A DNA stretch of 64,000 nucleotides from Parabacteroides sp. ZJ-118. Lineage in GTDB: Bacteria; Bacteroidota; Bacteroidia; Bacteroidales; Tannerellaceae. Shown here in pieces: positions 19,451 to 34,888 of the stretch. Every line of letters begins with the position of its first letter. Within the stretch, counting starts at the first letter, position 1. The stretch covers positions 1 through 64,000 of the forward strand of contig NZ_JAAKDT010000004.1 in the NCBI RefSeq assembly GCF_011038785.1. The letters are read 5' to 3'. Made by a program: the position numbers and the translations under genes. The notes beneath the pieces were generated by a model. It worked only from the letters and a program-made list of their open reading frames with translations, had not been told where the DNA came from and ran no database searches.

Positions 19451-20024
19451 TGTAATCGAGCAGCAAATGTATATTCTCAATCACTTTCACTACTCGATTT
19501 GCCTCAAATGACTCTTGCCCCATCATTTTGCTCTCACCTTTCAGTGCGGCATAAGAAAAGTCATTATTGCCAATGCTTAAAGAGGCGACATCGCCATTTT
19601 TGATGGACAGAAGCAGGGTTCCATTAGGACTGGGGAATAAATTCCAACATTTAAGTTCCAATCCGGAAAGAGAATCAATTACCCTCTTCGTGTTCTCGTA
19701 TGCCTGTTTTTCCAACGGTGAAGCCCCATAACCATCCCAATTATCATATTGGAGGTTTGAATATAGTGACTCAAGACGTTGTAACATCCGTGTTTTTGAA
19801 ACAAAATCATCTGATAATTCAGCTGCTAATCCTACCTTTAACGAATAATCATGAAAGGAAGAGCCACTCTGTTCCACAACACATTCCGGAGCAGAAGATG
19901 CAGCCGTAGCCTCATAGGTCCCCATGCTAATGGACAGCGCAGACATAACGGTCAGTACGAAAGTACTGTGTAAACTATGAGAATGCGAAATCGGATCCGC
20001 CAATTTGAAATTCATCTCGTTCAT
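19443..20024 (-). CDS. Hypothetical protein, 193 aa, with an NWDGYGA motif
   Basis: Starts MNEMNFKLADPISHSHSLHS with a moderately hydrophobic stretch at residues 22-38. The conserved part is LQYDNWDGYGASPLEKQAYE followed by NLFPSPNGTLLLSI; the NWDGYGA...N...PxxxG order recurs in small uncharacterised proteins found in mobile regions of many bacteria. No catalytic motif is evident. The start overlaps the stop of the 247-residue protein upstream by ATGA and its own stop overlaps the next gene, so it is the middle member of a coupled unit. Confidence 0.72.
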   Translation of the reverse strand: MNEMNFKLADPISHSHSLHSTFVLTVMSALSISMGTYEATAASSAPECVVEQSGSSFHDYSLKVGLAAELSDDFVSKTRMLQRLESLYSNLQYDNWDGYGASPLEKQAYENTKRVIDSLSGLELKCWNLFPSPNGTLLLSIKNGDVASLSIGNNDFSYAALKGESKMMGQESFEANRVVKVIENIHLLLDYNG

Positions 20025-20764
20025 TTTGACCTATCCATTAGTCCGATGATATCGGGTGTTATTAAATCATGGAACGCCCCATATATAACATCATTCAGCA
20101 TTGAAGAAACACTGAGAACGTCCGAAGTTTTTACATTTGCAGCTGTTGCCTTCAGTTCCAAAACCAAACGCAGATTATGCTCATCGATAATCTCTACGAA
20201 GAAATATACAACAAGACGGCCATCACCCAAATCGACATTTGCCTCTCGGCTCAATTTTATAGGCTTTGGGCTGTCATCCGGCACATTGAGTTTAGCGACC
20301 TCTCGGATGTTTTCATCAGCGAAAGTATACGGAATTGCCGATTTGTACGCATTCATAATATCTTCAGCACTCAAATCCCATTGATTATTTTTCTTGATTG
20401 AGAGAGAACTGACGTTGCTAATCCGCATTATTTGCAGGAAAGAGACCAGTTTGCCAATGTTCGGCTGCATAGTGTCGGCAAAAGACTTGTAATCCTCTGC
20501 TCCAACTAAAACGGATGAATTAGTGTTGTGAAAATCAAATGACAACGGCTTTCCCTCAGCTGTTAATTTAATCGATGCAAGTTCAGGATTATCATGCGGG
20601 TTAAAATCGACACCAAAATTATCCTTGAAAAACGTTGTAAGGGCTTCTGTTTGGGATGACAACGATATATCCGCATACTCTACATCAGCAGACGCACTTC
20701 GCATAAAGGTTCTATTGTAGACTTTATGCTCACTATTTTGATATGGATTATGTATCGAAACCAT
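20021..20764 (-). CDS. Hypothetical protein, 247 aa, weakly TIGR04255-like; first gene of the unit
   Basis: The ATG for MVSIHNPYQNSEHKVYNRTF is chosen because it lies just 12 bp after the promoter; the 18 upstream codons fall inside the promoter. The C-terminal end, SSMLNDVIYGAFHDLITPDI, resembles the ending of TIGR04255 proteins, which are of unknown function and often found in defence or mobile contexts; this similarity is weak and from memory. It heads an overlapping three-gene operon (to 18989). Confidence 0.68.
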   Translation of the reverse strand: MVSIHNPYQNSEHKVYNRTFMRSASADVEYADISLSSQTEALTTFFKDNFGVDFNPHDNPELASIKLTAEGKPLSFDFHNTNSSVLVGAEDYKSFADTMQPNIGKLVSFLQIMRISNVSSLSIKKNNQWDLSAEDIMNAYKSAIPYTFADENIREVAKLNVPDDSPKPIKLSREANVDLGDGRLVVYFFVEIIDEHNLRLVLELKATAANVKTSDVLSVSSMLNDVIYGAFHDLITPDIIGLMDRSK

Positions 20765-20776
20765 CGTTTTATGGCA

Positions 20777-20806
20777 CAAAGATAGATTTTTTTTGGCACA
20801 TAACAA
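20777..20806 (-). promoter_or_regulatory. Promoter of the three-gene unit
   Basis: Minus strand: TTG, 19 bases, TATCTTTG, then the ATG 12 bases on. It matches the Bacteroidota -33/-7 pattern. A near-identical segment lies at 18897-18925, showing that this promoter region was duplicated. Confidence 0.7.
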
Positions 20807-20833
20807 CAGGAAACCCATTATTTGATTCGTCCT

Positions 20834-20932
20834 TTAGCCCCTCCTAAAAATATCCCTCTCATAGACCTGCCCTTTAAGGCGACTGCCATAGCGGTTGGCG
20901 ATGATGGCGCGGGGCTGCTTACGGATAGAGCC
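20834..20932 (-). pseudogene. C-terminal remnant, probably of a UDP-glucose/nucleotide-sugar dehydrogenase
   Basis: Reads GSIRKQPRAIIANRYGSRLK then GQVYERDIFRRG and a stop. The NR-Y...L...VY-RDIF-R ending is how Bacteroidota UDP-glucose 6-dehydrogenases finish. The frame upstream is closed by a stop after a few codons. It is a 32-residue relic, consistent with earlier capsule genes having occupied this place. The parent family is inferred from the tail only. Confidence 0.5.
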
Positions 20933-20994
20933 AAATAATCCTGCATGACCTTCTCAAAGTAATCTTTGCTTTCCATTTCTAGGGGTGGTTTGTC

Positions 20995-21486
20995 TCATCC
21001 TTCCCCTAGCACATACTTCCTGATCCCATACCGGATGCTCGGTACATTCGCCCCGTTCACGAACGTGAGGTGGGGCAGGATGGCGTTGATGAAGGCCCGG
21101 CTCTTGACCAGCTTACGGGGAGACGAGTAGTCGGCCAGGATATCGTTGTAAAGGTCCGTCAATACCGTCTGGCAAAGGACGACCGTGTCCGGGCAGGCGC
21201 ATAGGCGAGCCTCGTAGGCAAGACGGACCGCCTCGTCCGGGATGAACAAGGCCAACGAGGAGGGTTCAGCCGTCGCCGAAGGGGCGGGAGATTTTACCGG
21301 AGGAGAGGGTGACTCATGAAGTCCCGACTCCGCGGGCGTAATCCAGCGTTCCGTCCGCGTCACCGTCCCGTCACCACAATGGATGTTCTGGATGGCGATG
21401 GTGGCATTGGGCAGGATCTGCACGTTACCTCCATTGATAGTATAGCCAGAACGTGCCTTTTCCGCCCGCTCTTGATTTTCTGTCAT
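20995..21486 (-). CDS. Hypothetical protein, 163 aa, Bacteroidales capsule-region family
   Basis: Starts MTENQERAEKARSGYTINGG followed by NVQILPNATIAIQNIHCGDG, then a proline-rich linker (SPSPPVKSPAPSATAEPS, about residues 58-76) and a helical C-terminal domain (residues 80-163). The two-part layout suggests an N-terminal beta-rich segment tethered to a helical domain. I know no function. It is as GC-rich as the cassette at 23661-27682 and unlike the AT-rich genes to its left, so it may belong with that cassette. Confidence 0.7.
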   Translation of the reverse strand: MTENQERAEKARSGYTINGGNVQILPNATIAIQNIHCGDGTVTRTERWITPAESGLHESPSPPVKSPAPSATAEPSSLALFIPDEAVRLAYEARLCACPDTVVLCQTVLTDLYNDILADYSSPRKLVKSRAFINAILPHLTFVNGANVPSIRYGIRKYVLGEG

Positions 21487-21759
21487 ATCTGTTTCAAAAT
21501 ATTAAGTATTAACAATAATCGCCCCTTTCACGGGAGCCTATTTATCTCACACAAGCCTGTACCGCCCGGATACGATCGCAAAACCGACAAAAGGACGGGG
21601 AATCTTTCAAATCTTGCAATCTTGCAAATCTTGCAGGCGACAATTTCCTCACACACACGAGCGCGCATGACGCGTACATTATAAAGGGTCCGTAAGCAGT
21701 TTGATTTAAACATCAGATATGCTGACATAGCACAGGGGGCTGTGAAAGACTCCCTTCTT
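21487..21759. other. Intergenic stretch with short direct repeats
   Basis: AATCTTGCAA-like units occur three times in tandem around 21605-21636. A segment near 21660 (GCGCGCATGACGCGTACA) resembles GTGCGCATGACGCGCACA inside the DUF3987 gene at about 24630. No gene is seen. Confidence 0.5.
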
Positions 21760-23340
21760 TCATGTGGTTGACGGATGATATTCTTCTATCCTCCAATCTC
21801 CCAAGGTTCTTCGCTCACTGTCAAAGTTTATGCCTACCTTCACCACCGGCAGTCCGCACAACGCGAAGCGATCGGGATAGTTTTTCAAGTCAATCTGCCG
21901 CATGGCGGCATCCGCCGTTTTATCCAGTTTCAGCTCTATCACATAGAGCGTGGCCTGCGTGCGCATCACCATATCCACACGCCCGCGCGGAGTGCGCACC
22001 TCCACATCCACATACATGCCCAGCAAACTGAAGATGGTGTAGAGCAACGATTGGTAATGCCCCTCGTAATCGGTATTGTCGCACTGCGGCACGGTGGCAA
22101 GAAATGTCTGCAGCAAGCGCAAGCCATCGTCCAACCGTTCCTCGGAAATGGCTTCAAACAAAAGTGCCACGGTCGTAAGCCCGTCCATGGTGTATTGATG
22201 CAGATATCCGGGCAACAAGCTCTTCATCAACCCCATGCGCACTTCTTTATTGGGGATATCCAACGTATAGAGCTGTGTAAGCGGAGAATAATCCTTTATC
22301 GTCACATACCCGCTTTGATAAAGCAACGGGGCGATATTGGTCATCCGTTCCGTAGGGGCGTCGAACGATTCGGCAAGCGCTTTCCGTTCGCCTACCTGCT
22401 GCGGTTTTACATGGAACTTGTTCAGCATCTCTATCAGATAGACGGGAGTTCCGCTACCAAACCAGTAAGAATTCATCTTGCCGTCGGCAAAAGCGTTCAG
22501 CAGGCTGAAAGGATTGTAAATATCGGGCGACGGCCAAGTGAAATGATAACCGTCATAATTTTTTTTCAATTCGGCAAGCACCTCCTCGCGGGTCAACCCC
22601 ATGCGCATGGCCAGCAGATTCAAATCACGGTCCATCTGCGTCTGCATTTCCTCTTCGCTTATACCGCAGATAGCGGCATAAGGTTCGTCCATGCTGATAT
22701 TCTTGATATTGTTCAGTTCGCTGAAGATGCTTAGCTGGGAGAACTTCGTGATGCCGGTCAGGAAAACGTAACGCAGATAAGGGTCGCAAGCCTTCAGTGG
22801 ACTGTAAAAATTACGCATCATATTGCGCAATGCAGGCAAGTCCTTCTCTTCGTGCACCACATCGAGGAGCGGGGCGTCGTATTCGTCAATGAGGACTACC
22901 ACCTGCTTGCCGGTCTGCCCAAAGGCACGCAAGATAAGTCCGGAAAAGCGGTCATTCAGAGTCACCTCCTCCTCTTTATGCCCATACACCTCTTCATATC
23001 TGGACAATTGGACACGCAGCATCTGTTCCAGCCGTTCCTCATCCACATGTTTCGCCAGGCTCATGTCAAAGTGAAGCACCGGATACTTGTTCCATTCCGT
23101 CTCCAGCTTCTCCATGGCAAGCCCTTCAAACAGTTCCCGGCAGCCCTCGAAATAAGCGTGTAACGTGCTGGTGAGCAAACTTTTGCCAAAACGTCGCGGA
23201 CGGCTCAGGAACAGATATTTGGCATCGGAATGCGTCATACGATACACATATTCCGTCTTGTCAATATATAAATAGTTCTTCCTGCGGATTTCCGAGAAAG
23301 TTTGTATTCCTATCGGGTAAAGTTGCCGTTGCTGCGTCAT
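21760..23340 (-). CDS. AAA-ATPase-like protein with C-terminal PD-(D/E)XK nuclease-like domain
   Basis: 526 residues from the ATG for MTQQRQLYPIGIQTFSEIRR; seven upstream codons are not used. The N-terminal AAA-ATPase-like domain has a degenerate Walker A (LFLSRPRRFGKSLLTSTL) and Walker B (VVVLIDEYDAPLLD). The C-terminal half carries the nuclease-like core, VDVEVRTPRGRVDMVMRTQA then LYVIELKLD, with the D...E-x-K triad. These proteins are abundant and repeated in Bacteroidales and are presumed mobile or regulatory; their substrate is unknown. A TATCTTTG box lies about 100 bp upstream. A relic of a relative sits at 18222-18345. Confidence 0.88.
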   Translation of the reverse strand: MTQQRQLYPIGIQTFSEIRRKNYLYIDKTEYVYRMTHSDAKYLFLSRPRRFGKSLLTSTLHAYFEGCRELFEGLAMEKLETEWNKYPVLHFDMSLAKHVDEERLEQMLRVQLSRYEEVYGHKEEEVTLNDRFSGLILRAFGQTGKQVVVLIDEYDAPLLDVVHEEKDLPALRNMMRNFYSPLKACDPYLRYVFLTGITKFSQLSIFSELNNIKNISMDEPYAAICGISEEEMQTQMDRDLNLLAMRMGLTREEVLAELKKNYDGYHFTWPSPDIYNPFSLLNAFADGKMNSYWFGSGTPVYLIEMLNKFHVKPQQVGERKALAESFDAPTERMTNIAPLLYQSGYVTIKDYSPLTQLYTLDIPNKEVRMGLMKSLLPGYLHQYTMDGLTTVALLFEAISEERLDDGLRLLQTFLATVPQCDNTDYEGHYQSLLYTIFSLLGMYVDVEVRTPRGRVDMVMRTQATLYVIELKLDKTADAAMRQIDLKNYPDRFALCGLPVVKVGINFDSERRTLGDWRIEEYHPSTT

Positions 23341-23660
23341 ATATGTCCCTCCCTCGCGCATTGTTTACTTATCTTATCGACCCGAAGAATGGCCTGTATT
23401 TCTTTTGACTGTAAGCGCATAATCCCACTTTTTTCACAAAGATAGGAAGAAATATCGAAAACGGAAATTATTTACGCAATAACGCATACTTCATCTCCGC
23501 CCGCCATACGCCCCAGGGGTGGTTTATATTTATTTTTATCCTCTTCTCATCCACCGTACGTCCGTTTTCGTACCCGTCTCGTCCATCGCTATTCCGGGAC
23601 CGGGCGGAAACGCATTCCTTTACCGGCGATAACCAAATCATCAATTAATTTTATCCGATC
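23341..23660. other. Divergent intergenic region between AAA-ATPase gene and the plus-strand cassette
   Basis: Minus strand: a TATCTTTG -7 box at 23437-23444 for the AAA-ATPase gene. Composition shifts sharply here from average to GC-rich on entering the cassette. I see no clear plus-strand TAnnTTTG box for the BT4734-like gene and no repeat. Confidence 0.5.
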
Positions 23661-24230
23661 ATGAAAGAGTCTATCTTTTCCTTTTTCAATGCCCCCGTCA
23701 CCAATCAGGTGCCGAACGGGGTTGTCTGTGTCAGCCAATTGCACGCCTATATCACCGCCAACGAGTGGCTGCGCGAGCGTACCGACCGGGTACGTGCCGC
23801 ATCAAGCGACGAGAAGCGATTCAGGCGACTGAAACAAAGTTTGCTACCTTATGTCACCCCCGCCGGGGTCTTCTCCTACCGCAAGGAAGACTTCCTGCTC
23901 GTGCCCTCGGGCGAGTTCGTCATCGACATCGACCATCTCCCCTCGCCCGAGGAGGCGATCCGTTGGCGAGACACGCTGTTCGCCGACGAGCGGCTGCGCC
24001 CCGACCTCGCCTTCGTCAGCCCCAGCACCACGGGCGTAAAACTCATCGTGCCTTACCGCCTGTCCGTTACCGCCACGATCGAGTGGGCTTTCGACGAGGC
24101 TCGACGATCGGCATGGGAATACCTCAAGTGGAGATACGGCTTGGAAGCCGATGCCTCGAACGCCGACCTCTCACGGGCTTGCTTCCTTTGCCACGATCCC
24201 TCGGCGAGGCTACGAGACCGGAATCGCTGA
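23661..24230 (+). CDS. BT4734/BF3469-family (VirE N-terminal-like) protein
   Basis: 189 residues. The block DFLLVPSGEFVIDIDHLPSP with AFVSPSTTGVKLIVPYRLSV is the signature of the BT4734/BF3469 family, related to the N-terminal domain of VirE and to archaeo-eukaryotic primase-like proteins in mobile elements. The two acidic residues in DIDHL could bind metal as in primases. The next gene encodes a DUF3987 protein, the usual partner. First gene of a six-gene plus-strand cassette; likely DNA-binding or priming, which is inferred. The product ends soon after CFLCHDPSARLRD, at the normal end of the domain. Confidence 0.85.
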   Translation: MKESIFSFFNAPVTNQVPNGVVCVSQLHAYITANEWLRERTDRVRAASSDEKRFRRLKQSLLPYVTPAGVFSYRKEDFLLVPSGEFVIDIDHLPSPEEAIRWRDTLFADERLRPDLAFVSPSTTGVKLIVPYRLSVTATIEWAFDEARRSAWEYLKWRYGLEADASNADLSRACFLCHDPSARLRDRNR

Positions 24231-24287
24231 TAGCGAACAAGTGACAGTTATCGTTTATAAATCCATATTCACCATTTATTATTCATT

Positions 24288-26111
24288 ATGAATCCTTTAT
24301 CTGATCTGGAGCGGCTCGTGGCCGCCATCGAGAAACAGGGGGCGAACATCGCTCCCACCTATCAAGCGTATATGCCGATCGCCTTCGCCATCGCCAACGA
24401 TTGCGGAGAGGCGGGACGGCCGTTCTTCCACCGCATCTGCCGCTTGTCGGAAAAGTACGTGTCCGACGAGGCGGACAAGCTCTTCGACCACGCCCTCAAG
24501 GAGGGCAACGGACGGAACGGGCTGGGATCCGTATTCCACTGGGCCGAGATCGCCGGTGTAAAGCCGGACAAACAGCTCGCCGAGACCGCACGAGCCTATA
24601 CCGCCGGATGCGATTCCCTCACTCCTGAGCGTGCGCATGACGCGCACACCATAGAGAGCCCGGAAACTCTCCCCGCTTGCTTCCCCGAGAGGCCCTGGCC
24701 CGCCTTCCTGAGGCGACTGCTGGATTGCGGGAACTCGCCCGCGCAACGAGACATCCTGCTGCTGGGAGCCGTCACCGTGCTGGGAGCGACGCTCAACAAG
24801 CGACTGAGGATCCTCTACGGAAGGAAGTTCCAGTATCCCTGCCTGCAAACTTTCATCGTGGCGCCACCCGCCTCCGGAAAGGGGGCGCTCACCTGGGTAC
24901 GCCGGCTGGCCGAACCCTTCCATGACGCGTTGATGGCCGATTACCGGGAGAAATACGATCGCTTTCGCACGGAAAAGGCGGAATGGGACGCGCTGGGCAA
25001 GCAACGCTCCAAGGTACCGGAACCGAAACAACCCCCCTTGAGGATGTTCCTCATCGCGGGAAACAACTCCGGGACGGGTATCCTGGAGAACTTGATCGAG
25101 GCCGAGGGGATCGGGCTGATCTGCGAGACCGAGGCCGATACCGTGAGCGCGGCGATCGACACCGAGCACGGCCATTGGAGCGATACCTTGCGCAAATGCC
25201 ACGACCATGAGCGCCTGTCGTTCAACCGACGCACGAACAAGGAGTACCGGGAATGCGCCGCCGCCTACCTGAGCGTATTGCTGAGCGGAACGCCCGCGCA
25301 GGTCAAGCCTCTCATTCCTTCGGCCGAGAACGGCTTGTTCTCTCGCCAGCTGTTCTATTTCATGCCTTCCATCAATGAGTGGACGAGCCAGTTCCATGCG
25401 GACGAGGTGGATTACGACCAGCGTTTCATCGAATGGGGCCGCCAGTGGAAACAGGTCGTAGACCGGATCGCGAAGGAGGTGAACCTCATCCAGCTGAGAC
25501 TCTCGGAGGAGCAGGAACAACGCTTCGACCGGCATTTCGCCCAAATATTCAGCCACGCCGGATGCTTGAGCGGAGGATCCATGCGGAGCACCGTGGTGCG
25601 CATAGCGATCAACGCCTGCCGGATCCTGAGCGTGGTGGCCCTGCTGCGGGCGGTGGAGAGGCTCCTCCCTCCCCAACAAACCCTTCCCAACGCGCAATTC
25701 TCCATCCTCAAGATCCCCGGTCTCTCCCCCTCGGAGGAGATCCCGGAGGAGAATGTCCGCGACGGCATTGTCCCGAAGCTCGACCTGCGGGTCACCGACG
25801 AGGACTTCGAGTCCGTGATGTCGCTCGTCGAGCCTCTTTACCGCCATTCCTGCCATATCCTGGGGTATCTCCCATCCGTGGAGCTTGTCCCGCAACAGGC
25901 TACCCCCTTGGAGTCCCTGTTCAAGGCCCTCCCCCTGGAGTTCTGCAGGAAACAGGCCGCCCAGGAGGCGGAGAAGAACGGGATCTCGCCGAATACCCTC
26001 GATTCCTGCCTGCGAAGGATGGTGGAGAAAGGGACGCTCGTCAGGAACGGGAGGGGCGAATACGCGTTCGCCTCGCGCGTGCGCACGTGTGTGAGAGAAA
26101 AGGAGGTTTGA
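24288..26111 (+). CDS. DUF3987-family protein (primase/helicase-like ATPase)
   Basis: 607 residues. The N-terminus resembles a PriCT-type domain (residues 1-90, YMPIAFAIANDCGEAGRPFF). The central DUF3987 region contains a Walker A-like loop, FIVAPPASGKGALTWVRRLA, and ICETEADTVSAAIDTEHGHW; a C-terminal winged-helix-like part ends in LRRMVEKGTLVRNGRGEYAF. DUF3987 proteins sit beside primases in phages and integrative elements and are thought to be replicative ATPases. It follows the BT4734-like gene by 57 bp. Strongly GC-rich. A long open frame on the opposite strand (24297-25895) is an effect of this composition. Confidence 0.87.
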   Translation: MNPLSDLERLVAAIEKQGANIAPTYQAYMPIAFAIANDCGEAGRPFFHRICRLSEKYVSDEADKLFDHALKEGNGRNGLGSVFHWAEIAGVKPDKQLAETARAYTAGCDSLTPERAHDAHTIESPETLPACFPERPWPAFLRRLLDCGNSPAQRDILLLGAVTVLGATLNKRLRILYGRKFQYPCLQTFIVAPPASGKGALTWVRRLAEPFHDALMADYREKYDRFRTEKAEWDALGKQRSKVPEPKQPPLRMFLIAGNNSGTGILENLIEAEGIGLICETEADTVSAAIDTEHGHWSDTLRKCHDHERLSFNRRTNKEYRECAAAYLSVLLSGTPAQVKPLIPSAENGLFSRQLFYFMPSINEWTSQFHADEVDYDQRFIEWGRQWKQVVDRIAKEVNLIQLRLSEEQEQRFDRHFAQIFSHAGCLSGGSMRSTVVRIAINACRILSVVALLRAVERLLPPQQTLPNAQFSILKIPGLSPSEEIPEENVRDGIVPKLDLRVTDEDFESVMSLVEPLYRHSCHILGYLPSVELVPQQATPLESLFKALPLEFCRKQAAQEAEKNGISPNTLDSCLRRMVEKGTLVRNGRGEYAFASRVRTCVREKEV

Positions 26112-26180
26112 AAGAAAGAAAGAATGAAAGTTTCACGATCCTGTCATTCCGGATTCATAACTCATAAATCATAACTGAAA

Positions 26181-26387
26181 ATGTCTTTGCCATTAAGAAA
26201 GTCCGAGCTGGCGGCACGCTATTTCCCGGAGCTGGCCTCCCACCAGGCCTGCAACCGCCTGCGCCGCTGGATCGTCCGATGCGCCGAGCTGCACGACAGG
26301 CTGCGGGAGACGGGATACCGCCCCGAGCAACGTATCCTCACGCCTCGGCAGGTGGGGTTGATCGCCCGTTACCTGGGAGAACCGTGA
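26181..26387 (+). CDS. DUF4248 family protein
   Basis: 68 residues, MSLPLRKSELAARYFPELAS to RILTPRQVGLIARYLGEP. The pattern S-ELA-xYFP...A...LRRWI...L...LTP-QV-xIxRYLGEP is that of DUF4248, a small Bacteroidales family with a likely helix-turn-helix fold that nearly always lies between a DUF3987 gene and an HU-like gene. Probably a DNA-binding adaptor or regulator of the cassette; that role is inference. Confidence 0.85.
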   Translation: MSLPLRKSELAARYFPELASHQACNRLRRWIVRCAELHDRLRETGYRPEQRILTPRQVGLIARYLGEP

Positions 26388-26416
26388 GGCGAATGCCCAT
26401 TCTAAGCTTCTTTGAA

Positions 26417-26468
26417 TGCCCATCGTAAGCCTCTTACAATGCCTATTCAAAGGAGCTTACGATGGGCA
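26417..26468. repeat. Hairpin with 14-bp perfect stem; related to element at 48300-48342
   Basis: TGCCCATCGTAAGC (26417-26430) pairs with GCTTACGATGGGCA (26455-26468). The preceding TCTAAGCTTCTTTGAATGCC continues the resemblance to the element at 48300-48342. It lies between the DUF4248 and HU-like genes and may act as a terminator or attenuator. Confidence 0.8.
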
Positions 26469-26629
26469 GCGTAAGGAAACGCCGGTTATCAGCGTGCCCT
26501 ATGTTAATGAATCCTTATTCCTTACCCCGGGCATCAACCGGCATCACGGCTCCTTACGGCGGCACTTATCTTTGTGACGTTGATCAACCAATCATTAATC
26601 TTCGAGTATCAATCTTTAATTATCAAATT

Positions 26630-27097
26630 ATGCCACAAGCATTTCAAGCACGAAAGTTTTTTGTTCCAAAAACGGATCCCAAGCAGGAGGTGTACAAACC
26701 GGTGCCTTACTATTTCGGTACCCTATCCACTCAAGACGTGGCGGACCAGATCGCTGAGGAGTCTTCGCTCACGAAGGGTGACGTATTGAATGTGTTGGAT
26801 CGCTACCAGCGCTATGTTATCAAGAACTTGCAGAAGGGCTACAAGGTAGAGCTGCTGGGGTTCGGAACTGTCTATAACCGATTCGTCACGGAGAAGGGGG
26901 TGCCGACCGCCGAGGAGGTCAAGGCTACGCATATCCGGACGATCGTACCGGGATTCTCGCCTTCCTATACCCTACTGAACGGGGCACGACGCTACTCGCT
27001 GCTGGGCGAGAAGACTTCGCTGCTCAAGGTCTCGATACTCGGGACGCCGGTGGAGGAAGGTGGGAGTCCTGACCTGGATTCGCCCAACGAGGTCTAG
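26630..27097 (+). CDS. HU-family DNA-binding protein (Bacteroidales long variant)
   Basis: 155 residues from the ATG for MPQAFQARKFFVPKTDPKQE; upstream in-frame codons lie in the hairpin region. The core, LSTQDVADQIAEESSLTKGD then GYKVELLGFGTVYNRF, is HU-like (helical dimerisation half plus beta arm), with an extended tail of about 40 residues. Such variants are typical of capsule and mobile regions rather than the housekeeping HU. It would bind and bend DNA. Third-from-last gene of the cassette. Confidence 0.85.
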   Translation: MPQAFQARKFFVPKTDPKQEVYKPVPYYFGTLSTQDVADQIAEESSLTKGDVLNVLDRYQRYVIKNLQKGYKVELLGFGTVYNRFVTEKGVPTAEEVKATHIRTIVPGFSPSYTLLNGARRYSLLGEKTSLLKVSILGTPVEEGGSPDLDSPNEV

Positions 27098-27143
27098 TGT
27101 TACTTGCTATTCATTATTCACTGTTCATTAAATTAGATTTATC

Positions 27144-27239
27144 ATGAAAAAGTCTGTTTGGAGTACTGTTCTCAAAGTGATCATCGCTGTTGCTACCGCT
27201 ATCGCGGGGGCTCTCGGCATAACGGCTTGCGGATTATGA
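27144..27239 (+). CDS. Smalltalk-type peptide, 31 aa, single membrane span with lipobox-like ending
   Basis: The ATG at 27144 encodes a 31-residue peptide: charged start MKKSVWS, a hydrophobic helix LKVIIAVATAIAGALGI, and the ending TACGL. It matches the short Bacteroidales proteins annotated as smalltalk, found between HU-like and amidase genes. ITAC resembles a lipoprotein box, which if processed would leave a three-residue lipopeptide. The stop overlaps the amidase ATG (ATGA), so the two are translationally coupled. A holin-like or lysis-peptide role is my inference from size, topology and neighbour. Confidence 0.8.
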   Translation: MKKSVWSTVLKVIIAVATAIAGALGITACGL

Positions 27240-27682
27240 GCAAGGCTTATTGCTTCTACCAGAATTACAGGGAGGTTCGCCTCCTTGTGATTCATTGCTC
27301 GGCGACGCGATATGACAGGGATTTTCCCGTGGAGGCGCTCCGTTCATCGCACAGGGCCCGGGGGTTCGCCGATATCGGCTATCATTTCTACATCACACGA
27401 GACGGGGTTCTGCATCGCTGCCGACCGGTCAACCGGATCGGGGCGCACGCCGCCGGATGGAACGACCGGAGCATCGGTATTTGCTACGAGGGTGGCCTCG
27501 ATGAACGGGGTCGTCCTGCCGATACCCGGACTTACGCCCAGCGCTGTACCTTGATGGATCTGCTACGGCAACTGCGGAGGGATTACCCCGAGGCACGTAT
27601 CTTGGGACACTATCAGCTTAGCTCCTATATCCGTAAGGCTTGCCCTTGCTTTGACGCGAGGAAGGAGTATGAAACCTTATAA
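27236..27682 (+). CDS. N-acetylmuramoyl-L-alanine amidase (Amidase_2 type), no signal peptide
   Basis: 148 residues starting MSKAYCFYQNYREVRLLVIH. Zinc-amidase motifs: VIHCSATRYD (first His), HRARGFADIGYHFYITRDG, and ILGHYQLS (last His) with KACPCFD. This is the T7-lysozyme-like fold that cleaves the amide bond between MurNAc and the peptide. It has no export signal, so to reach peptidoglycan it needs lysis or a partner such as the 31-residue peptide coupled to it. Its stop lies one base from the stop of the convergent WbpM-like gene. Confidence 0.9.
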   Translation: MSKAYCFYQNYREVRLLVIHCSATRYDRDFPVEALRSSHRARGFADIGYHFYITRDGVLHRCRPVNRIGAHAAGWNDRSIGICYEGGLDERGRPADTRTYAQRCTLMDLLRQLRRDYPEARILGHYQLSSYIRKACPCFDARKEYETL

Positions 27683-27683
27683 A

Positions 27684-29624
27684 TCATGCCTGTTTATCCA
27701 GCGCCTCGTACTTGGAGTGCCGGCTCTTGAACTCGGGCACGATCGCCTTCATCTTGCCCACGATGGCCATGTCGTCTCCCGAGCGGCCCAGGCCGATGAG
27801 CCCATATATCTCCCGGCGGACCGTGTCGTAGTCGTACTCCCGCACCTTGGCGATCTTGATCTTCGGATGGAAGGTGGGCAGCGTGACCTCCTTGTCGTTC
27901 AGTACCTCCTCGTACAGCTTCTCGCCGGCACGAAGACCCGTGAACCGGATCTCCACGCCCTTGGCGCCCGACAGCTGGATCATGCGCTTCGCCAGGTCGA
28001 GGATACGCACGGGCTTGCCCATGTCGAAGACGAAGATCTCCCCGCCGTGCCCCATCGTGCCCGCCTCCAGCACCAGCCGGCAGGCCTCCGGGATCAGCAT
28101 GAAGTAACGGATGATATCCGGGTGCGTCACCGTCACGGGACCGCCCCTGGCGATCTGGTCGCGGAACAACGGGATCACGGAGCCGTTAGAGCCCAGCACG
28201 TTGCCGAAGCGGGTCGTGACGAACTGCGTCACGCCCCCCACACGGCCCTCCTTGACCGCCTTGTCGAGGCTCTGCACGTAGATCTCGCAGATCCGTTTCG
28301 AGCAGCCCATCACGTTCGTGGGATTCACCGCCTTGTCCGTGGAGATCATCACGAACTTCCTCGTGCCGTACCTCACGGCCAGGTCGGCGATCACGCGGGT
28401 CCCCCCCACGTTGTTCCCCACGCTCTCGCGAGGGTTGTCCTCCATCATCGGGACGTGCTTGTAGGCCGCCGCGTGGAACACGTAGGCGGGGCGATGCTCC
28501 GAGAAGATCTCCTCCATGCGGGGCTTGTTGGCGATGTCCGCCACCAACGTATAGGCGTTGATGCCCCGCCAATCCCTCGCCATCATCAGGCGGATGTCGT
28601 GCAAGGGGGTCTCCGCCTGGTCCACCAGGATCAAGCGCTCCGGGGCGAACGGGGCGATCTGACGCACCATCTCGCCCCCGATGCTGCCGGCGGCCCCCGT
28701 TATCAAGATGCGTTGGCCGCGAAGCAGGCGGCCTACCGCCTCCATGTCTATCTCTATCTTTTCCCGCGGGAGCAGGTCCTCGATCTCGACCTTCCGGAGT
28801 TGCGTATGCGTCAGGTCGCTCTTCCCGTCCCACTCGCGCGCCGCCGGCGTCACGTAGATCTTGATCCCCGCCTCCGCCAGGCGGGCCACCATATCCGGCT
28901 GCTCCCGGATGGAGTCGCCCTTCAGGGGTGAGACGAAAAGGATCGTCGCCCGTTCCCGGCGCATGGCGGCGATCAGGTCCCCGTCGAAAGGGTACACCCG
29001 TACTCCCATCAGGACGCGGTTCTGCATGTCCCCCGCCTCCGAGACAAAACCCGCCAGCACGTACTGCGCGGGATCCTGGTTCTGGATGCTCTTCGCCAGG
29101 CTGATACCGCCCCGCTTCACGCCGAGGATAAAGGCACGCTCCGCTTTCGCGAGGCGGAAGGTCGTCACGTAGAGGTACTTCACGGACACGCGCGTCGCCC
29201 ACATCAGGCTCATCGCCAGCAGGGAGGATAGCACGAGGTCCCGTTTTCGGATATACACCAGGTAGGGCGAGAAGTCCGTGAGCTCCTGGAAGGCCACCAC
29301 GCAGACCGCGCCGAACAGCACGGCGAGCCCCACCCGCTGCAAATCCACGAAGGAGGAGTAACGAAGGATGCCCGAGTAGGTCCGGAACAGCCGGAAGCCC
29401 GCCAGATAGGGCAACAGGCAGACCCCCCACGTGAGCGACAGGTGCCAGAGGATACCCGTCGTGGCGGAGATGCCGTTATTCAACGCGTAGACCAGCAAGC
29501 CGGAGAACAGGATCACCCAGCAATCCAGCAGGATAATGCTCCAATACGGCAGCGCTTTCCTTGAGAAATACCACCTTGAGAGCTTGGAAAAAAGGTTCAT
29601 CTTGAGTAAACTCGGGGGGTTCAT
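27684..29624 (-). CDS. WbpM/FlaA1-like membrane UDP-sugar 4,6-dehydratase
   Basis: 646 residues. Four or five membrane spans in the first 165 residues, a CoA-binding-like middle part (AERAFILGVKRGGISLAKSI), then the SDR domain with ITGAAGSIGGEMVRQIAPF, AAAYKHVPMMEDNP and MISTDKAVNPTNVMGCSKR. WbpM-type enzymes make UDP-4-keto-6-deoxy-GlcNAc, often the start of the first sugar of the repeat. As in CapE, Met occupies the usual Tyr place in N-V-M-G-x-S-K. The start overlaps the preceding gene stop by four bases. Third gene of the regulatory head of the capsule locus; GC-rich. Confidence 0.88.
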   Translation of the reverse strand: MNPPSLLKMNLFSKLSRWYFSRKALPYWSIILLDCWVILFSGLLVYALNNGISATTGILWHLSLTWGVCLLPYLAGFRLFRTYSGILRYSSFVDLQRVGLAVLFGAVCVVAFQELTDFSPYLVYIRKRDLVLSSLLAMSLMWATRVSVKYLYVTTFRLAKAERAFILGVKRGGISLAKSIQNQDPAQYVLAGFVSEAGDMQNRVLMGVRVYPFDGDLIAAMRRERATILFVSPLKGDSIREQPDMVARLAEAGIKIYVTPAAREWDGKSDLTHTQLRKVEIEDLLPREKIEIDMEAVGRLLRGQRILITGAAGSIGGEMVRQIAPFAPERLILVDQAETPLHDIRLMMARDWRGINAYTLVADIANKPRMEEIFSEHRPAYVFHAAAYKHVPMMEDNPRESVGNNVGGTRVIADLAVRYGTRKFVMISTDKAVNPTNVMGCSKRICEIYVQSLDKAVKEGRVGGVTQFVTTRFGNVLGSNGSVIPLFRDQIARGGPVTVTHPDIIRYFMLIPEACRLVLEAGTMGHGGEIFVFDMGKPVRILDLAKRMIQLSGAKGVEIRFTGLRAGEKLYEEVLNDKEVTLPTFHPKIKIAKVREYDYDTVRREIYGLIGLGRSGDDMAIVGKMKAIVPEFKSRHSKYEALDKQA

Positions 29625-30013
29625 GTAAGCCGGGGCAAGCCCTTCACCTCACCGGCGTGCCACTCTTGGTAGGCCGCTATGGGAAGCCCGGGGACGGTCA
29701 ATAGCTTGTAATCCTTATCGTCCTTTTTAAGGATGTGCGCACGGGTATATACTTGGAGCGAGCGATCCGTCACGGAGACCATCACCACCGGGAAGGGGTA
29801 GCCGAGCAGGCGCATCGGCGTGATCTCGCTGTCCGGGAACATGCGGCGTAACTGGTAGGCCGAACGCTCGAAAGCCACCCAATAGGGTCCCGTGCAATAC
29901 AGATGTATCGCGTTTCGGTTCGCGCGCTCGCGATCCATGATCTCTGCCAAACGCTCGTTCAGCAACCTCACCAAACGGACGCCGGAAGGAAGGGAAGAGA
30001 TGTCTCGGACCAT
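29621..30013 (-). CDS. Hypothetical protein, 130 aa, between UpxY-like and WbpM-like genes
   Basis: 130 residues, MVRDISSLPSGVRLVRLLNE then AIHLYCTGPYWVAFERSAYQ and TVPGLPIAAYQEWHAGE. Soluble, mixed alpha/beta. It occupies the place taken by UpxZ in Bacteroides fragilis capsule loci but does not look like UpxZ. Overlap with the WbpM-like gene (ATGA) and 31 bp from the UpxY-like gene place it in the same operon. It may be a regulator of capsule expression; no family is recognised. Confidence 0.75.
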   Translation of the reverse strand: MVRDISSLPSGVRLVRLLNERLAEIMDRERANRNAIHLYCTGPYWVAFERSAYQLRRMFPDSEITPMRLLGYPFPVVMVSVTDRSLQVYTRAHILKKDDKDYKLLTVPGLPIAAYQEWHAGEVKGLPRLT

Positions 30014-30044
30014 GATTGTCGATCTAGGATTTAAACGGTCAATG

Positions 30045-31154
30045 TTATTCGTGCCTCAGCCACCGGTCGTAATCGGCCAACCGACGGATCAAGGCTGATT
30101 TACTCTTCTTCGGGGAGGATTCCCGGCTCCACGGGTCCACCAAATCGTGCGCCATCTGCCGGTAGATGCTGCTGTCCGTGCAGCCGTAGAGCGTCACCAG
30201 CAACAGGGCGCGGGATTGCGGCGCTTTCACCGCAGGGAGCATGCCGCGCATCGTGGCGAGCAAGCGCACGAACTCATCCTCCTCGCCCAACAGCTTGTAG
30301 GCGGAAAGGAGCGACGAGTAGATCTTGCAACGCATCACGTCCGTCTCCGCGCGGAGCGAACCGTAGGATCTCAACACCTCACGCGCCAAGCGCGTATCCC
30401 CCTCCGCTACGCTGCCGGAGGCGTGGTAACGCCCCAAGGCGTCGTGCAAGCCCTCCCGCAGGCGGTCGTTGTCCAGGTGGGTATAGGCGTGCTTGCCCTT
30501 GGTGTTCAGCTCGATCAGCTCATACTCGCCCGGCTTCACCTCGAACAGGGGAACCCACATGCAATCGAGGATACGCGCCATGACATCCTTATGACCGCCG
30601 CCCGGCTGGATCACCACCTCCGCCTCCATCCCGGCGAAATAGCCGGACGTGATGCGTACGCGGTCCCCCTTCAGCAGGCGGCCGCTGTCCGGGACGTACA
30701 CCGGAAGCTCGTTGGAATACGATCTCGCCACCCAACGCAGATTCTCCATCTCGCTATCCGACAGGTAAGGGAAACGGGTCGCGTCTCCGGAAGAGATCCG
30801 GGGCAGGAAATTGTACAGGGGAAGCGTGCGCTTCATCCGGAAGATCTCCTCCACGGAGGAGCGGATAAACACGTAGTTGAACAGCAGGGGACGCCTCGTG
30901 TTGACCAGCTTGCCGCCCACCTTCCTCACCTCCACGTACGAGGGGGCGAAATACTCGAACAACGTCTCCCCGCGACGCTCGCGCCGGGAAAGCTCCACGT
31001 CCAGCCCCCTCGAGGGGCTGATCCTGTCGCGCCTGCCACCCGCTGCGGTAGGGAGCGTCAGTACGTACCAGCGAACGGTTCTCAGGTCTTGACGCTTACG
31101 AACCTGCGCCATGCCCCTGTCCGGGCAATCGTTCCTCAAAGCATTTATCGACAT
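30045..31154 (-). CDS. UpxY-like NusG-family transcription antiterminator, long form
   Basis: 369 residues from the ATG for MSINALRNDCPDRGMAQVRK, preceded by GGGAGG 10 bases upstream; the frame is open a further 24 codons, but those lack such a site. NusG-type N-terminal domain at residues 24-130 (RTVRWYVLTLP, LLFNYVFIRSS) and KOW motif at 163-180 (GDRVRITSGYFAGMEAEV). A helical extension from about 185 to 369 has no counterpart in the 170-180-residue UpxY proteins. UpxY factors let RNA polymerase read through the leader of their own capsule operon. Here the gene sits 147 bp from an invertible promoter. Confidence 0.85.
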   Translation of the reverse strand: MSINALRNDCPDRGMAQVRKRQDLRTVRWYVLTLPTAAGGRRDRISPSRGLDVELSRRERRGETLFEYFAPSYVEVRKVGGKLVNTRRPLLFNYVFIRSSVEEIFRMKRTLPLYNFLPRISSGDATRFPYLSDSEMENLRWVARSYSNELPVYVPDSGRLLKGDRVRITSGYFAGMEAEVVIQPGGGHKDVMARILDCMWVPLFEVKPGEYELIELNTKGKHAYTHLDNDRLREGLHDALGRYHASGSVAEGDTRLAREVLRSYGSLRAETDVMRCKIYSSLLSAYKLLGEEDEFVRLLATMRGMLPAVKAPQSRALLLVTLYGCTDSSIYRQMAHDLVDPWSRESSPKKSKSALIRRLADYDRWLRHE

Positions 31155-31301
31155 GATTCTCTTTTCCTCCCTGATTATGCCAGGACCTCCCAAGGCGAAC
31201 GGCAATTCAAAGCCCTGCCAAGGCAATCCTGTTTATCCTTGACACACAACATTTTACGTATTCAATTATGGCATCTCTGAAAATTACCATCGCCCGAGAA
31301 T

Positions 31302-31326
31302 ATTAAGCTACTCGGGAAGTAGCGTA
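31302..31326. repeat. Left inverted repeat of the promoter switch, 25 bp
   Basis: ATTAAGCTACTCGGGAAGTA followed by GCGTA; its exact reverse complement is at 31626-31650. Likely crossover site of the adjacent tyrosine recombinase. Confidence 0.95.
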
Positions 31327-31583
31327 AAAGCTCGTATTAGGGGGAACAGATGGCGCAGACCGGGCAGATGGACCGGATATTTATTTTTTTATCTATAAAA
31401 TCCACGTCCATACGCATCATCTGCGTGCCACTTCAAGCTCTTGGATGAATAAAGGCAAAAGGGGAATCCCTTCTGCCCGGGTTGTCATGTCCATAAGACA
31501 ACAAAAAAGGCAGAACCACACATGTGTTTTATGAAATTAGGCAGATCGCCCCTACGAAAAAGAAAGTTTTCTCCTTGGAAGGC

Positions 31584-31612
31584 TTGCCTATTATCTTTTT
31601 TTGCTACATTTG
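31584..31612 (+). promoter_or_regulatory. Promoter within the invertible segment
   Basis: TTG at 31584-31586, 18 bases, then TACATTTG at 31605-31612, a perfect TAnnTTTG. The right inverted repeat begins 13 bases downstream, so transcription starts just before or in the repeat. In this orientation it runs into the 3' end of the recombinase gene, antisense to it. Confidence 0.8.
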
Positions 31613-31625
31613 CGCCGTGAAAGAA

Positions 31626-31650
31626 TACGCTACTTCCCGAGTAGCTTAAT
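31626..31650. repeat. Right inverted repeat of the promoter switch, 25 bp
   Basis: TACGCTACTTCCCGAGTAGC followed by TTAAT, the perfect reverse complement of 31302-31326. It ends 3 bp before the recombinase stop codon. Confidence 0.95.
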
Positions 31651-31653
31651 CCC

Positions 31654-32586
31654 TTACCCAGCCCCGGATACCGGTTTGTACACGCTCTCGAAACAAGCTT
31701 GGTTCACCGCCGACAAACGTTCCAACGAGAAGTTCTTCAAATAGATCTGCGTCGTGTTGATCGACTTATGCCCCAATAACTCGCTGATCACCTCGACCGG
31801 CACGTCCTGCTCCTTCAAGAGCGAGGCGAACGAGTGGCGGATCGTGTACGAGGTTAACGGGCAGGTCACGCCGCAGGCCTTTGCCAACCGCCTCAGGTCT
31901 CGATTGAAGCGAAACAAGGCCGCGTTGTATTCCTTGTAGGCCGCCTCATCCGTTTTCTTCCCGCTCAAAAACGGGAATAAATAAGGCGACTCTTTGTCCG
32001 TGCAGGCCGCTAATTCGTCCAGCAAAAGCCGCACCCCGGCGGGAATCTCCACTTGGATGAAAGACCCGCTCTTCCGCCGATGGTATGACAAGACCCCGTC
32101 CTTGATATTCTCCCTTTTCAGGTGGGCGAAATCCGCGAACGCCATACCGCTGAACGAGAACATCAGGCTAAAGGCCAGCCGGGTTCTCCGCATCTTCGGC
32201 CCGACTTCCGGCGCTCCCATCAACGAGCGCAAGCTTCCCGCCGGCAACGCTCTCTTCCGCTTGCTCTCCACGCCCGTGAATATCCCCTTGAACAAAAGAG
32301 GAATATAGGGAGCCTCGCCCGCCTCCACCGCCAAGTTGTAGATGTGACGAATCCGACGCATATAGGTGGACACCGTGTTTGGGGTGCATCCATTGCCCTG
32401 CAACCACGACTGATAGAGCCTGAGTGTCGCGTTATCGATACTGGTATAGGGTATCTCATCCGATCCGCGGAAACGCTTGAATGAGTTCAGGGCGTCTTGA
32501 TAACTCTTCGCCGTGGAATGACGCCCACACGCACGCGACTTGGACATGTACGCCAACGTGCCCGCTACAAAATTCTTTTCTTTCAT
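31654..32586 (-). CDS. Tyrosine site-specific recombinase (promoter invertase candidate)
   Basis: 310 residues: SAM-like core-binding domain (about 1-105), catalytic domain after that. Visible catalytic positions are K172 in YHRRKSGSF, R250 in TSYTIRHSFAS, H273 in LLGHKS and the nucleophile Y282 in TTQIYLKNF. The first catalytic Arg, expected in the R-G-M-x-F-x-D-x-A motif, appears as Ser (S146, FSFSGMAFADFAHL). The gene ends 3 bp from the right inverted repeat, the arrangement of local promoter invertases in Bacteroidales capsule loci. Function as the invertase of this switch is inferred from position. Confidence 0.88.
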   Translation of the reverse strand: MKEKNFVAGTLAYMSKSRACGRHSTAKSYQDALNSFKRFRGSDEIPYTSIDNATLRLYQSWLQGNGCTPNTVSTYMRRIRHIYNLAVEAGEAPYIPLLFKGIFTGVESKRKRALPAGSLRSLMGAPEVGPKMRRTRLAFSLMFSFSGMAFADFAHLKRENIKDGVLSYHRRKSGSFIQVEIPAGVRLLLDELAACTDKESPYLFPFLSGKKTDEAAYKEYNAALFRFNRDLRRLAKACGVTCPLTSYTIRHSFASLLKEQDVPVEVISELLGHKSINTTQIYLKNFSLERLSAVNQACFESVYKPVSGAG

Positions 32587-32728
32587 ATCTCGTTTTTCTA
32601 AATTAAGTACAATTCGGATACAAAAGAAAAAAAAATCTCCGGTACGCTTTTCGGAAAAATCCTTCCGCTAAGCATACCGGAGAAATGGGCTATTACTGAG
32701 CCGTATGTGCTAAAGAATGCGCTCCTTC

Positions 32729-34888
32729 CTATCTCCTCAATTCCATCTCGTCCAATAGATAACCGGCTCCGGCATATTTATCGATTACGAACAGGACATA
32801 ACGGATATCTACGATAATACTGCGTTGATAGTCGGGCAGATATTGGATATCCCCTCCTACGCCTTCCCAGTTGCGGTCGAAATTGATGCCGATTAACTCT
32901 CCTTGTCCATTCAATACCGGACTTCCGGAGTTTCCTCCCGTTGTATGGGTCGTGGCACAGAAGGCAACCGGCATTTTACCGTTCGGCATCTTATACGGGC
33001 CAAAGTCTCCGGCTTGATACAATTCCTTCAAACGAGCGGGAACCACAAATTCCCAATTCGTGGAATCCTCCTTCTCCATGACGCCGTCCAAAGTGGTTTG
33101 ATGGCCGTAATAATCGCAATCGCGAGGGCTGTAACCTTTCACCTGCCCGTAAGTCAGGCGAAGCGTAGCGTTCGCGTCCGGGAAGCTGGCCAAGTCTCCA
33201 TACATCGCTAAAAGCCCTTTCACATACGTACGATGAGCGATCGCGTAGCCGGCATCAAAATCGGCCAAGGCCTTATCTAACGCATCTTTCTCATCCTTTA
33301 CAGATCGCGCGAACCGGATCATCGGGTCTTCTCTCAACGCTTTGACAGACGGATGCTCCTTGAACGCGTTAAAGTTCTTCTCGCTGCCATAGATCGATTT
33401 ATCAAACAGATACTCCACGAATTTATCCACATCCCCCTTAAACGTACTATCGATTACAGAGAAATAGGCCGGCTGTGACTTCGGAGCGACCAAACGCCTA
33501 TATTCCTTTAGCATGACTTTCGCGATCTTCTTATCAACCATCGGCGCGTAATCCTTATCCGCGAAACGATGGAAAGCCTGCTCCAACTGGGTGAGCTGTT
33601 TTTGTTGCTCGGAACGATCTGTCCCCTCCAAAGCCTCACAAACAGGCTCGATATCGGTCGGCACTTTTGAGAACTCGATACCGCGGCTCAATGCCTCATT
33701 CAACATCCAACTGCGGAAACGCAAATCCTTTCGATCGCGAACGATTTGCTCCAAGGTCAGGAGCGCTTCCGGATAAGCCGGCTCACACCGCTCCTTCGAC
33801 CAAGCGATCAAACGATCCTGCTCTTTGTTTTTCACCTGCTCAAAATTACGTTTGTTGATCGCCCAGTTACTGCCGATCGCGTTCTTATAAGCGTTCGTAG
33901 AACCCGCGTACTTACTGGCGTATTGAATCCGGACGCGCGGGTCTTTCAGCATTTCTTCCAGCATCGCCTCTTGACGGAGATTACGGATATTGATACGTAC
34001 CGCGTTATCGATATCCCGGCGCTCGGCTACCTCCCATGAGGTATAGTATTTGTTGGTACGACCGGGGAAGCCCATGATCATGGCATAATCGTTCTCCTCC
34101 ACACCTTTCAAAGAAAGCTTCAACCAACGTTTCGGGCGAAGGGGGACATTGGTCTCCGAATAAGGCGCCGGATTCCCGTTCGCGTCGGCATATACACGGA
34201 AAAGGGAGAAGTCGCCGGTGTGGCGAGGCCACATCCAGTTATCCGTATCCGCGCCGAACTTACCGATGGAAGAGGGGGGAGCGCCGACTAAACGGACATC
34301 CGAATAGATCTTCTTGGTAAACATATAGTATTTATTACCTCCATAAAAGGCCTTGATCTCAACTTCCGTACCGGGGTGATCCTGTAAGAACTTCTCACCT
34401 ACTTTCGCTTTAGCGAGCTCATTCAGGTACTTGGCGGACATGAATTCCATGCTGTTCGGATCCGTGATCTTTTTCAGTTCCGCCATCACATAATCCGTCA
34501 CGTCGTCGATCTTATCGATAAAGGCAACCGTCAATCCCGGATTCGGAAGCTCCTTATCCCGAGACATCGCCCAAAAGCCGTCCGTCAGATAATCATGTTC
34601 CAAGGTACTATGCCGTTGGATGCTACTATAACCACAGTGATGATTCGTCAGCACCAACCCGTCCGGGGAGATCATCTCGCCCGTACAACCTCCGCCAAAA
34701 CGAACCACGGCATCTTTCAGGGAAGGAGCCTCGGCACTATACACTTCTTGATCGCTTAATCGCAGGCCCAGAGCCTGCATCTCCGCAAACTTCTGTTGCT
34801 TCAATAATGGGAGCAGCCACATGCCCTCGTCGGCCAAGGCCGGAAACGCCAATATAGCGGCCGCCACAGATAAAAACAGTTTCTTCAT
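32729..34888 (-). CDS. S46-family dipeptidyl-peptidase, DPP11-like
   Basis: 719 residues with signal peptide MKKLFLSVAAAILAFPALAD. Chymotrypsin-like exopeptidase of the S46 family: His in VLTNHHCGYSSI (near residue 84) and Ser in THTTGGNSGSPVLNGQG. The Arg in INFDRNWEGVGGD lies where, as I recall, DPP11 has Arg (preference for Asp/Glu) and DPP7 has Gly. It releases dipeptides from peptides in the periplasm, supporting amino-acid nutrition. Its start overlaps the CYTH gene stop by ATGA. Family certain, specificity probable. Confidence 0.92.
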   Translation of the reverse strand: MKKLFLSVAAAILAFPALADEGMWLLPLLKQQKFAEMQALGLRLSDQEVYSAEAPSLKDAVVRFGGGCTGEMISPDGLVLTNHHCGYSSIQRHSTLEHDYLTDGFWAMSRDKELPNPGLTVAFIDKIDDVTDYVMAELKKITDPNSMEFMSAKYLNELAKAKVGEKFLQDHPGTEVEIKAFYGGNKYYMFTKKIYSDVRLVGAPPSSIGKFGADTDNWMWPRHTGDFSLFRVYADANGNPAPYSETNVPLRPKRWLKLSLKGVEENDYAMIMGFPGRTNKYYTSWEVAERRDIDNAVRINIRNLRQEAMLEEMLKDPRVRIQYASKYAGSTNAYKNAIGSNWAINKRNFEQVKNKEQDRLIAWSKERCEPAYPEALLTLEQIVRDRKDLRFRSWMLNEALSRGIEFSKVPTDIEPVCEALEGTDRSEQQKQLTQLEQAFHRFADKDYAPMVDKKIAKVMLKEYRRLVAPKSQPAYFSVIDSTFKGDVDKFVEYLFDKSIYGSEKNFNAFKEHPSVKALREDPMIRFARSVKDEKDALDKALADFDAGYAIAHRTYVKGLLAMYGDLASFPDANATLRLTYGQVKGYSPRDCDYYGHQTTLDGVMEKEDSTNWEFVVPARLKELYQAGDFGPYKMPNGKMPVAFCATTHTTGGNSGSPVLNGQGELIGINFDRNWEGVGGDIQYLPDYQRSIIVDIRYVLFVIDKYAGAGYLLDEMELRR

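Follow-up and report, generated by a model that had tools for sequence, protein, structure and literature searches.

Sequence evidence for a probable phase-variation switch at a Parabacteroides capsule locus, with related segments assembled in both orientations in the same genome

Does the 349-bp segment between a UpxY-like gene and a tyrosine recombinase gene act as an invertible promoter for the adjoining capsule operon, and if so, which recombinase turns it? We addressed this question in the window, which is the whole 64-kb stretch of DNA analyzed here, and extended the analysis to paralogous loci of the same genome and to related loci of the genus. The following features define the switch region:

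31302-31650, no strand: candidate invertible segment, 349 bp (339 bp core to core, cores counted)
31302-31326, plus strand: left inverted repeat, 25 bp, with the 17-bp core GCTACTCGGGAAGTAGC at 31307-31323
31626-31650, minus strand: right inverted repeat, 25 bp, with the core at 31629-31645
31584-31612, plus strand: promoter TTG-18-TACATTTG, a consensus match (TTG at 31584-31586, 18 nt, TACATTTG at 31605-31612)
31453-31478, minus strand: terminator-like hairpin inside the segment, facing the capsule operon in the OFF orientation
31654-32586, minus strand: tyrosine recombinase, presumed invertase, 310 aa, Phage_int_SAM_5 and Phage_integrase

An earlier note on this DNA had described perfect 25-bp inverted repeats around the segment, and recomputing coordinates and complementarity confirmed them: the arms 31302-31326 and 31626-31650 are 100% complementary over 25 nt each, enclose 299 nt, and form the only perfect inverted repeat of at least 16 bp in the window. 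This count was limited to perfect matches with arms at least 20 bp apart and arm starts at most 1 kb apart. The numbers obtained at k = 16, 18, 20 and 25 (10, 8, 6 and 1, respectively) match the expectation for a single 25-bp pair, and 20 first-order Markov resamples of the window contained no inverted repeat at 16 or 18 bp and at most two at 14 bp. The core GCTACTCGGGAAGTAGC consists of 6-bp half-sites flanking a 5-bp spacer (GCTACT-N5-AGTAGC). The described position of the segment between the two genes also holds, with the ATG of the UpxY-like gene at 31154 on the minus strand and the recombinase gene, likewise on the minus strand, ending at 31654 immediately outside the right repeat.

Scanning both strands of the segment for TAnnTTTG returned a single match, at the plus-strand promoter 31584-31612, which reads toward the recombinase gene; the UpxY-like gene and the minus-strand capsule operon lie behind it. 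This agrees with the claim that the sole consensus promoter of the segment faces away from the capsule genes. A generic E. coli sigma-70 scan of 30900-32000 found no promoter; the Bacteroidales consensus differs from that of E. coli. The OFF state previously assigned to the operon stands for the assembled sequence and says nothing about the population.

The catalytic domain of the recombinase matches PF00589 (E 2.8e-16). The motifs TIRHSFA, LGH and TTQIYLK, which we take to be the C-terminal R..H..Y signature, are invariant in all six copies of the own genome, so that this signature is kept. Box I, which we presume to be GMAF, is conserved in the same six copies and does not contain the usual arginine. 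IntDOT of Bacteroides likewise has no arginine in box I. The global capsule invertase of B. fragilis is a serine recombinase, Mpi.

Evidence for inversion comes from paralogous loci. The own genome (3.17 Mb, 125 contigs) contains 14 recombinase matches, six of them at 66-100% identity, and each of these six loci (C70, which is the window locus, C36, C44, C50, C51 and C52) bears a pair of cores of the same type, with repeat arms of 18-25 bp and segments of 313-359 bp. In detail, there are ten exact core sites in the genome, arranged as five pairs, and the C52 pair has one mismatch; the core pattern at no or one mismatch gave no sites beyond those of the six loci. At up to three mismatches the pattern loses its specificity (72 matches per strand vs. 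142 for a reversed control). As assembled, C36, C50 and C52 are ON and C70, C44 and C51 are OFF.

The inner segments of C70 and C36 agree at 284 of 291 aligned bases (97.6%) when one of them is reversed and at 116 of 273 as assembled, and the same holds for C44 and C36 (288/291, 99.0%, vs. 119/266 as assembled). C70 and C44, on the other hand, agree in the same direction (293/299, compared with 111/267 after reversing one). The flanks of the three loci have the same order: the leader and the UpxY-like gene are 96.5-98.5% identical and the recombinases keep their direction. The opposite orientation of the C36 segment between matching flanks therefore indicates that the segment has been inverted since these copies diverged. 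This speaks strongly for a functioning switch, on the basis of a paralog's sequence rather than of reads from the window locus.

Taken together, it is very probable that 31302-31650 is a phase-variation switch for the capsule operon, with a promoter inverted by the adjacent recombinase or a close paralog. According to this model, the recombinase 31654-32586 or a close paralog would bind the half-sites GCTACT/AGTAGC, synapse both repeats, exchange strands within the 5-bp spacer and thereby invert the 349-bp segment. In the OFF orientation the promoter is aimed at the recombinase gene and nothing in the segment would drive the capsule operon, whereas after inversion it would lie at ~31340-31368 on the minus strand. 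In the ON state the transcript would start near the repeat, run through the repeat hairpin and then the leader of 147 bp, and take in the UpxY-like antiterminator, a second gene of 130 aa and the capsule genes. Entry into the long operon would presumably need the UpxY-like factor, acting by antitermination on the leader. At C70, C44 and C36 the terminator-like hairpin (31453-31478 in the window) is likewise directed at the operon in the OFF state and might halt transcripts that run on from the recombinase gene. We considered such an OFF-state terminator as a general rule of the system and rejected it, as a hairpin of this kind is limited to these three near-identical copies among 21 segments scanned (loci defined below). 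On the capsule-facing strand the other segments gave the repeat core itself, one different hairpin (L081) or nothing. A terminator-like hairpin over the promoter TTG, on the promoter strand, was seen in four of the 21 segments (L079, L085, L086 and L089).

To see how far the arrangement extends, 38 genomes of the genus, the own one counted, were searched with the recombinase at a threshold of E 1e-80, which gave 25 matches in five genomes. In total 26 loci were examined, six own and 20 others; one of them, L098, was added for its UpxY-like gene and has a recombinase of 35% identity. Within the limits of the search, 21 of the 26 loci have a repeat pair and 20 of these the repeat core; L098 has a different repeat and is therefore outside the set of 20. 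Each of the 21 segments (the 20 with the core and L098) has a TAnnTT(T/C)G box whose start lies 38-46 bp from one end and which is preceded by TTG at a spacing of 18-19 nt, in a listing that took only boxes up to 80 bp from a segment end. The 20 core-bearing loci are assembled as 14 OFF and 6 ON, and the single-contig genome G004 holds 7 OFF and 1 ON among the eight scored of its nine recombinase loci.

No repeat pair within the limits was found at five loci, namely L087, L088, L093 and L094 (both at contig ends) and L097. L087 has a single core (at 2377, with the recombinase turned forward) and no matching promoter before the UpxY-like gene, and is possibly a locked deletion product. At L088 the cores lie at 2127 and 5035, so that the segment spans 2.9 kb; an inserted element has probably enlarged it. 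As exceptions, both loci tell of decay. The cores of L097 are at 2028 and 2167 (recombinase turned forward), 139 bp start to start, and by eye they adjoin an HU-like gene and surface genes of fimbrial-type appearance; this setting suggests that the recombinase/repeat family also serves a non-capsule locus.

A competing reading, to which we give somewhat less than even weight and which is otherwise compatible with a capsule switch, is that the segment is invertible, but not (only) by its neighbor, so that paralogs elsewhere or a global invertase would do the work. The half-sites are indeed identical at five of the six own loci, with C52 one base off, and the near-identical recombinases of C44 and C50 (98.7% DNA identity) stand beside cores with different spacers. 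Furthermore, C70, C44 and C36 share one common core, yet in DNA the window recombinase matches the other two at no more than 78.5-80.5%, and B. fragilis uses a single global invertase for seven capsule promoters, as described in the available part of PMC12632263. A dedicated local enzyme is favored by the fact that the recombinase frame is free of internal stops at every own locus and its match reaches to within 6-19 bp of the repeat, and by the repeat family accompanying the recombinase family at 20 of the 26 loci.

Two further explanations concern the inversion as such. The decayed or altered relatives L087 (one core, no such promoter) and L088 (cores 2.9 kb apart) show the kind of fate a relic might have, that is, a switch past inverting and locked OFF; perfect 25-bp repeats, an open recombinase frame and close copies of the segment in both orientations make this very unlikely for the window locus. 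Slightly less probable still is that the opposite orientation of C36 relative to C70/C44 arose by misassembly of near-identical loci. The assembly consists of 125 contigs and the three loci are 96-99% identical over ~2 kb, which is in favor of this reading, but the copies differ from one another in their substitutions and in their recombinase sequences, and both states also occur at different loci of the single-contig genome G004. In addition, the arms measure only 21-25 bp, and ordinary sequencing reads are longer than that.

The paralogs also differ in which parts they share. The recombinases of C44 and C50 are nearly identical, as mentioned above, while their segments (55.6%), leaders (39.6%) and UpxY-like genes (44.3%) are unrelated. 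Conversely, C70 and C44 have recombinases of 80.5% identity in DNA together with segments of 98.3% and UpxY-like genes of 96.8%. From this contrast the loci appear to swap halves at the recombinase/repeat junction. The identity of C70, C44 and C36 extends ~1.65 kb downstream and breaks off close to where the second gene ends, and leader, UpxY-like gene and second gene therefore appear to travel as a unit.

A switch of this type is already published for P. distasonis, and the window locus is a further member. A literature search with the repeat letters and the genus name gave PMC12118408 (2025) as its sole match. In the passages available of this paper, P. distasonis APCS2/PD carries a 17-bp repeat consensus GCTACTYRGNRAGTAGC at 10 of 12 capsule operons, and the operons have an integrase upstream, a NusG-like first gene and a promoter region of 314-345 bp. 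The window core GCTACTCGGGAAGTAGC fits this consensus, its repeat pair flanks the promoter, an integrase adjoins the repeat upstream, a NusG/UpxY-like first gene is followed by capsule genes, and the 339 bp from core to core fall in the published range. The window locus differs in that it belongs to another genome, its repeat is perfect over 25 bp and it is assembled OFF. The view that the layout is that of the phase-variable capsule promoters known in Bacteroidales is thus borne out by the fit to the published consensus and by the same architecture at 20 of 26 genus loci. The same passages report RNA-seq with phage PDS1, in which expression changed at 12 gene clusters and rose at 10 of them. 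It fell at CPS1 and CPS7, the two that have no repeats; CPS7 was the dominant capsule before phage. As two of the 12 P. distasonis loci are described without repeats and L087, one of the 26 recombinase loci, has a single core and no such promoter, the layout is no guarantee of a working switch.

Other described systems share parts of the arrangement. The invertible promoters of B. thetaiotaomicron CPS1/3/5/6 and of its S-layer, in the account available from PMC12118408, likewise have a palindromic core and an adjoining tyrosine-type invertase, but the capsule-locus repeat is CCGTTACCTAAGAAGTAAC there and GCTACT-N5-AGTAGC in the window. In B. fragilis PSA-PSH an invertible promoter also precedes a UpxY-type antiterminator and capsule genes; there the single invertase acts globally, whereas here each locus has a tyrosine recombinase gene (PMC12632263, in the part available). 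The large-capsule promoter of B. fragilis with Tsr19 resembles the window in combining a local tyrosine site-specific recombinase with an invertible capsule promoter, a likeness by description and not by sequence (PMC3090145, available passages). The available text of PMC9409006 counts as many as 14 capsule loci, places an integrase at every cluster examined, reports no upxZ, and describes insertions with a phage-type amidase in some P. distasonis capsule loci. The mosaic breakpoints, the leader element and the second gene without a Pfam family go beyond the available passages of these papers.

The genes and the leader that would be transcribed in the ON state are as follows:

31155-31301, minus strand: leader from the repeat to the UpxY-like gene, 147 bp
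31206-31281, minus strand: conserved leader element, with a hairpin at 31216-31244 enclosed by a nearly invariant UUCAG/CUGAA helix
30045-31154, minus strand: UpxY-like antiterminator, 369 aa, a NusG-like part and a C-terminal extension of ~160 aa predicted to be mostly helical
29621-30013, minus strand: second gene at the UpxZ position, 130 aa, unannotated
649-29624, minus strand: capsule locus with sugar-nucleotide enzymes, glycosyltransferases, a flippase-like protein, an EpsG-type polymerase and a pyruvyl transferase (Pfam)

The first protein scores 65.5 bits (E 5.3e-18) against the NCBIfam model UpxY (NF033644), below the curated cut-off of 100 bits, and we therefore name it UpxY-like instead of filing it as a UpxY member. 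It also matches a PHROG transcription antiterminator (E 1.8e-11) and, under the cut-off, Pfam NusG (E 0.0089). Its structure model has a mean pLDDT of 46.5 and exceeds 60 mainly in the C-terminal helical part.

The ATG at 31154 confirms the 147 bp given earlier for the leader. An alignment (A4) of 15 leaders was chosen for two leader motifs, so that its motif columns are partly invariant by selection. The hairpin 31216-31244 pairs in all 15 of them, two of its pairs are changed on both sides, and TTTTCAG is common to all. Leader motifs and hairpin were seen too when the same 15 loci were aligned by position; from that alignment C50, L085, L089, L092, L095 and L098 had been removed by hand because their leader differs or a contig ends there, and it likewise lacks the five loci at which no repeat pair was found. 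Hairpin and enclosing helix have 99.5% of cells paired, compared with 32-54% after a shift of 1-3 columns. None of 500 shuffles matched the covariation score or the six doubly changed cells, while the number of doubly changed pairs (n = 2) was reached by 125 of 500; with this and the close relationship of the rows, the covariation support for the hairpin is modest.

Across the 38 genus genomes the leader pattern occurs at 18 sites, 15 of which precede long UpxY-like genes (5/5 in the own genome, 7/8 in G004, 2/3 in G005 and one in G023); the three in G021, G024 and G035 look unrelated. It is absent at three divergent long UpxY-like genes of 61-62% identity (G005:C87, G004 at 4647 kb and G011:C48) and at C50, whose UpxY-like gene is short. 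The element may be a UpxY-type antitermination site. An Rfam scan of 29000-33000 gave one match, far under the gathering score, and a literature search conducted mostly without subscription journals found no report of a UpxY hairpin or untranslated region in Bacteroides. Two other structures were set aside. A candidate terminator at 31212-31224 was dropped, since its 5-bp stem overlaps the conserved hairpin and, on visual inspection, is not conserved among the other aligned leaders. A hairpin AUGGU/GCCAU at the leader start, with 86.7% of cells paired, is not claimed, as sliding its partner by +3 scores 0.185 (66.7% paired) vs. 0.194.

The second gene occupies the position that UpxZ has in B. 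fragilis and is present at all six own loci. Its protein has no Pfam match up to E 10, and matches at E <=0.001 were found in 15 of 59 genomes searched, the own one counted, some of them merely near 1e-4. The UpxZ profile PF06603 matched none of 119 genomes of the order, yet none of 14 controls either, so that the reach of the profile is uncertain. A gene at this position may not be new, because a secondary source, itself available in part, credits Xu et al. (2007) with upcY and upcZ genes in locus 5 of P. distasonis. Comparing the model of the protein (pLDDT 57) with solved structures gave MutS as the best rows (Z 4.5, rmsd 4.0 over 81 residues) vs. Z 3.9 for unrelated GFRP rows, and HHalign against MutS domain I scored 16.8, while the highest of 30 column shuffles reached 17.6. 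Foldseek returned nothing at E <=0.001, and a PDB sequence search nothing significant. A MutS domain I-like fold is weakly hinted at by three methods, with no signal that exceeds background, and is not claimed.

A tentative joint reading, which we consider rather doubtful as a whole, would be a three-part control in Parabacteroides that replaces the UpxY/UpxZ pair of B. fragilis. In this scheme the leader element 31206-31281 would be recognized by the long UpxY-like protein, letting polymerase into the operon, and the second-gene family, which has no known domain, would serve as a cross-locus brake; at the same time, the loci would swap a recombinase half and a promoter-antiterminator half at the recombinase/repeat junction.

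The switch as such is ordinary for gut Bacteroidales, in which susceptibility to phages is influenced by phase variation of the capsule. It is useful as a clear case at the sequence level, with near-identical segments in both orientations within one genome; its repeat core, the place of its promoter and its leader offer a means of locating and scoring similar switches in other Parabacteroides. Leader element and second gene provide entries into how Parabacteroides, reported without UpxZ in the available passages of PMC9409006, restrict expression to few capsules.

The gene content by Pfam identifies the minus-strand locus 649-29624 as a capsule or exopolysaccharide locus. It is interrupted by a plus-strand insert at ~23661-27682 and contains other genes at ~18989-23361. 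The insert encodes a BT4734-like primase part, a DUF3987/PriCT_2 protein, an HU-like protein and a phage-type amidase, and resembles the amidase-bearing insertions reported from P. distasonis capsule loci (PMC9409006, available passages). At 21760-23361 on the minus strand, an AAA-ATPase-like/PD-(D/E)XK protein is encoded within the capsule locus, and a protein with a similar start is found downstream at C51.
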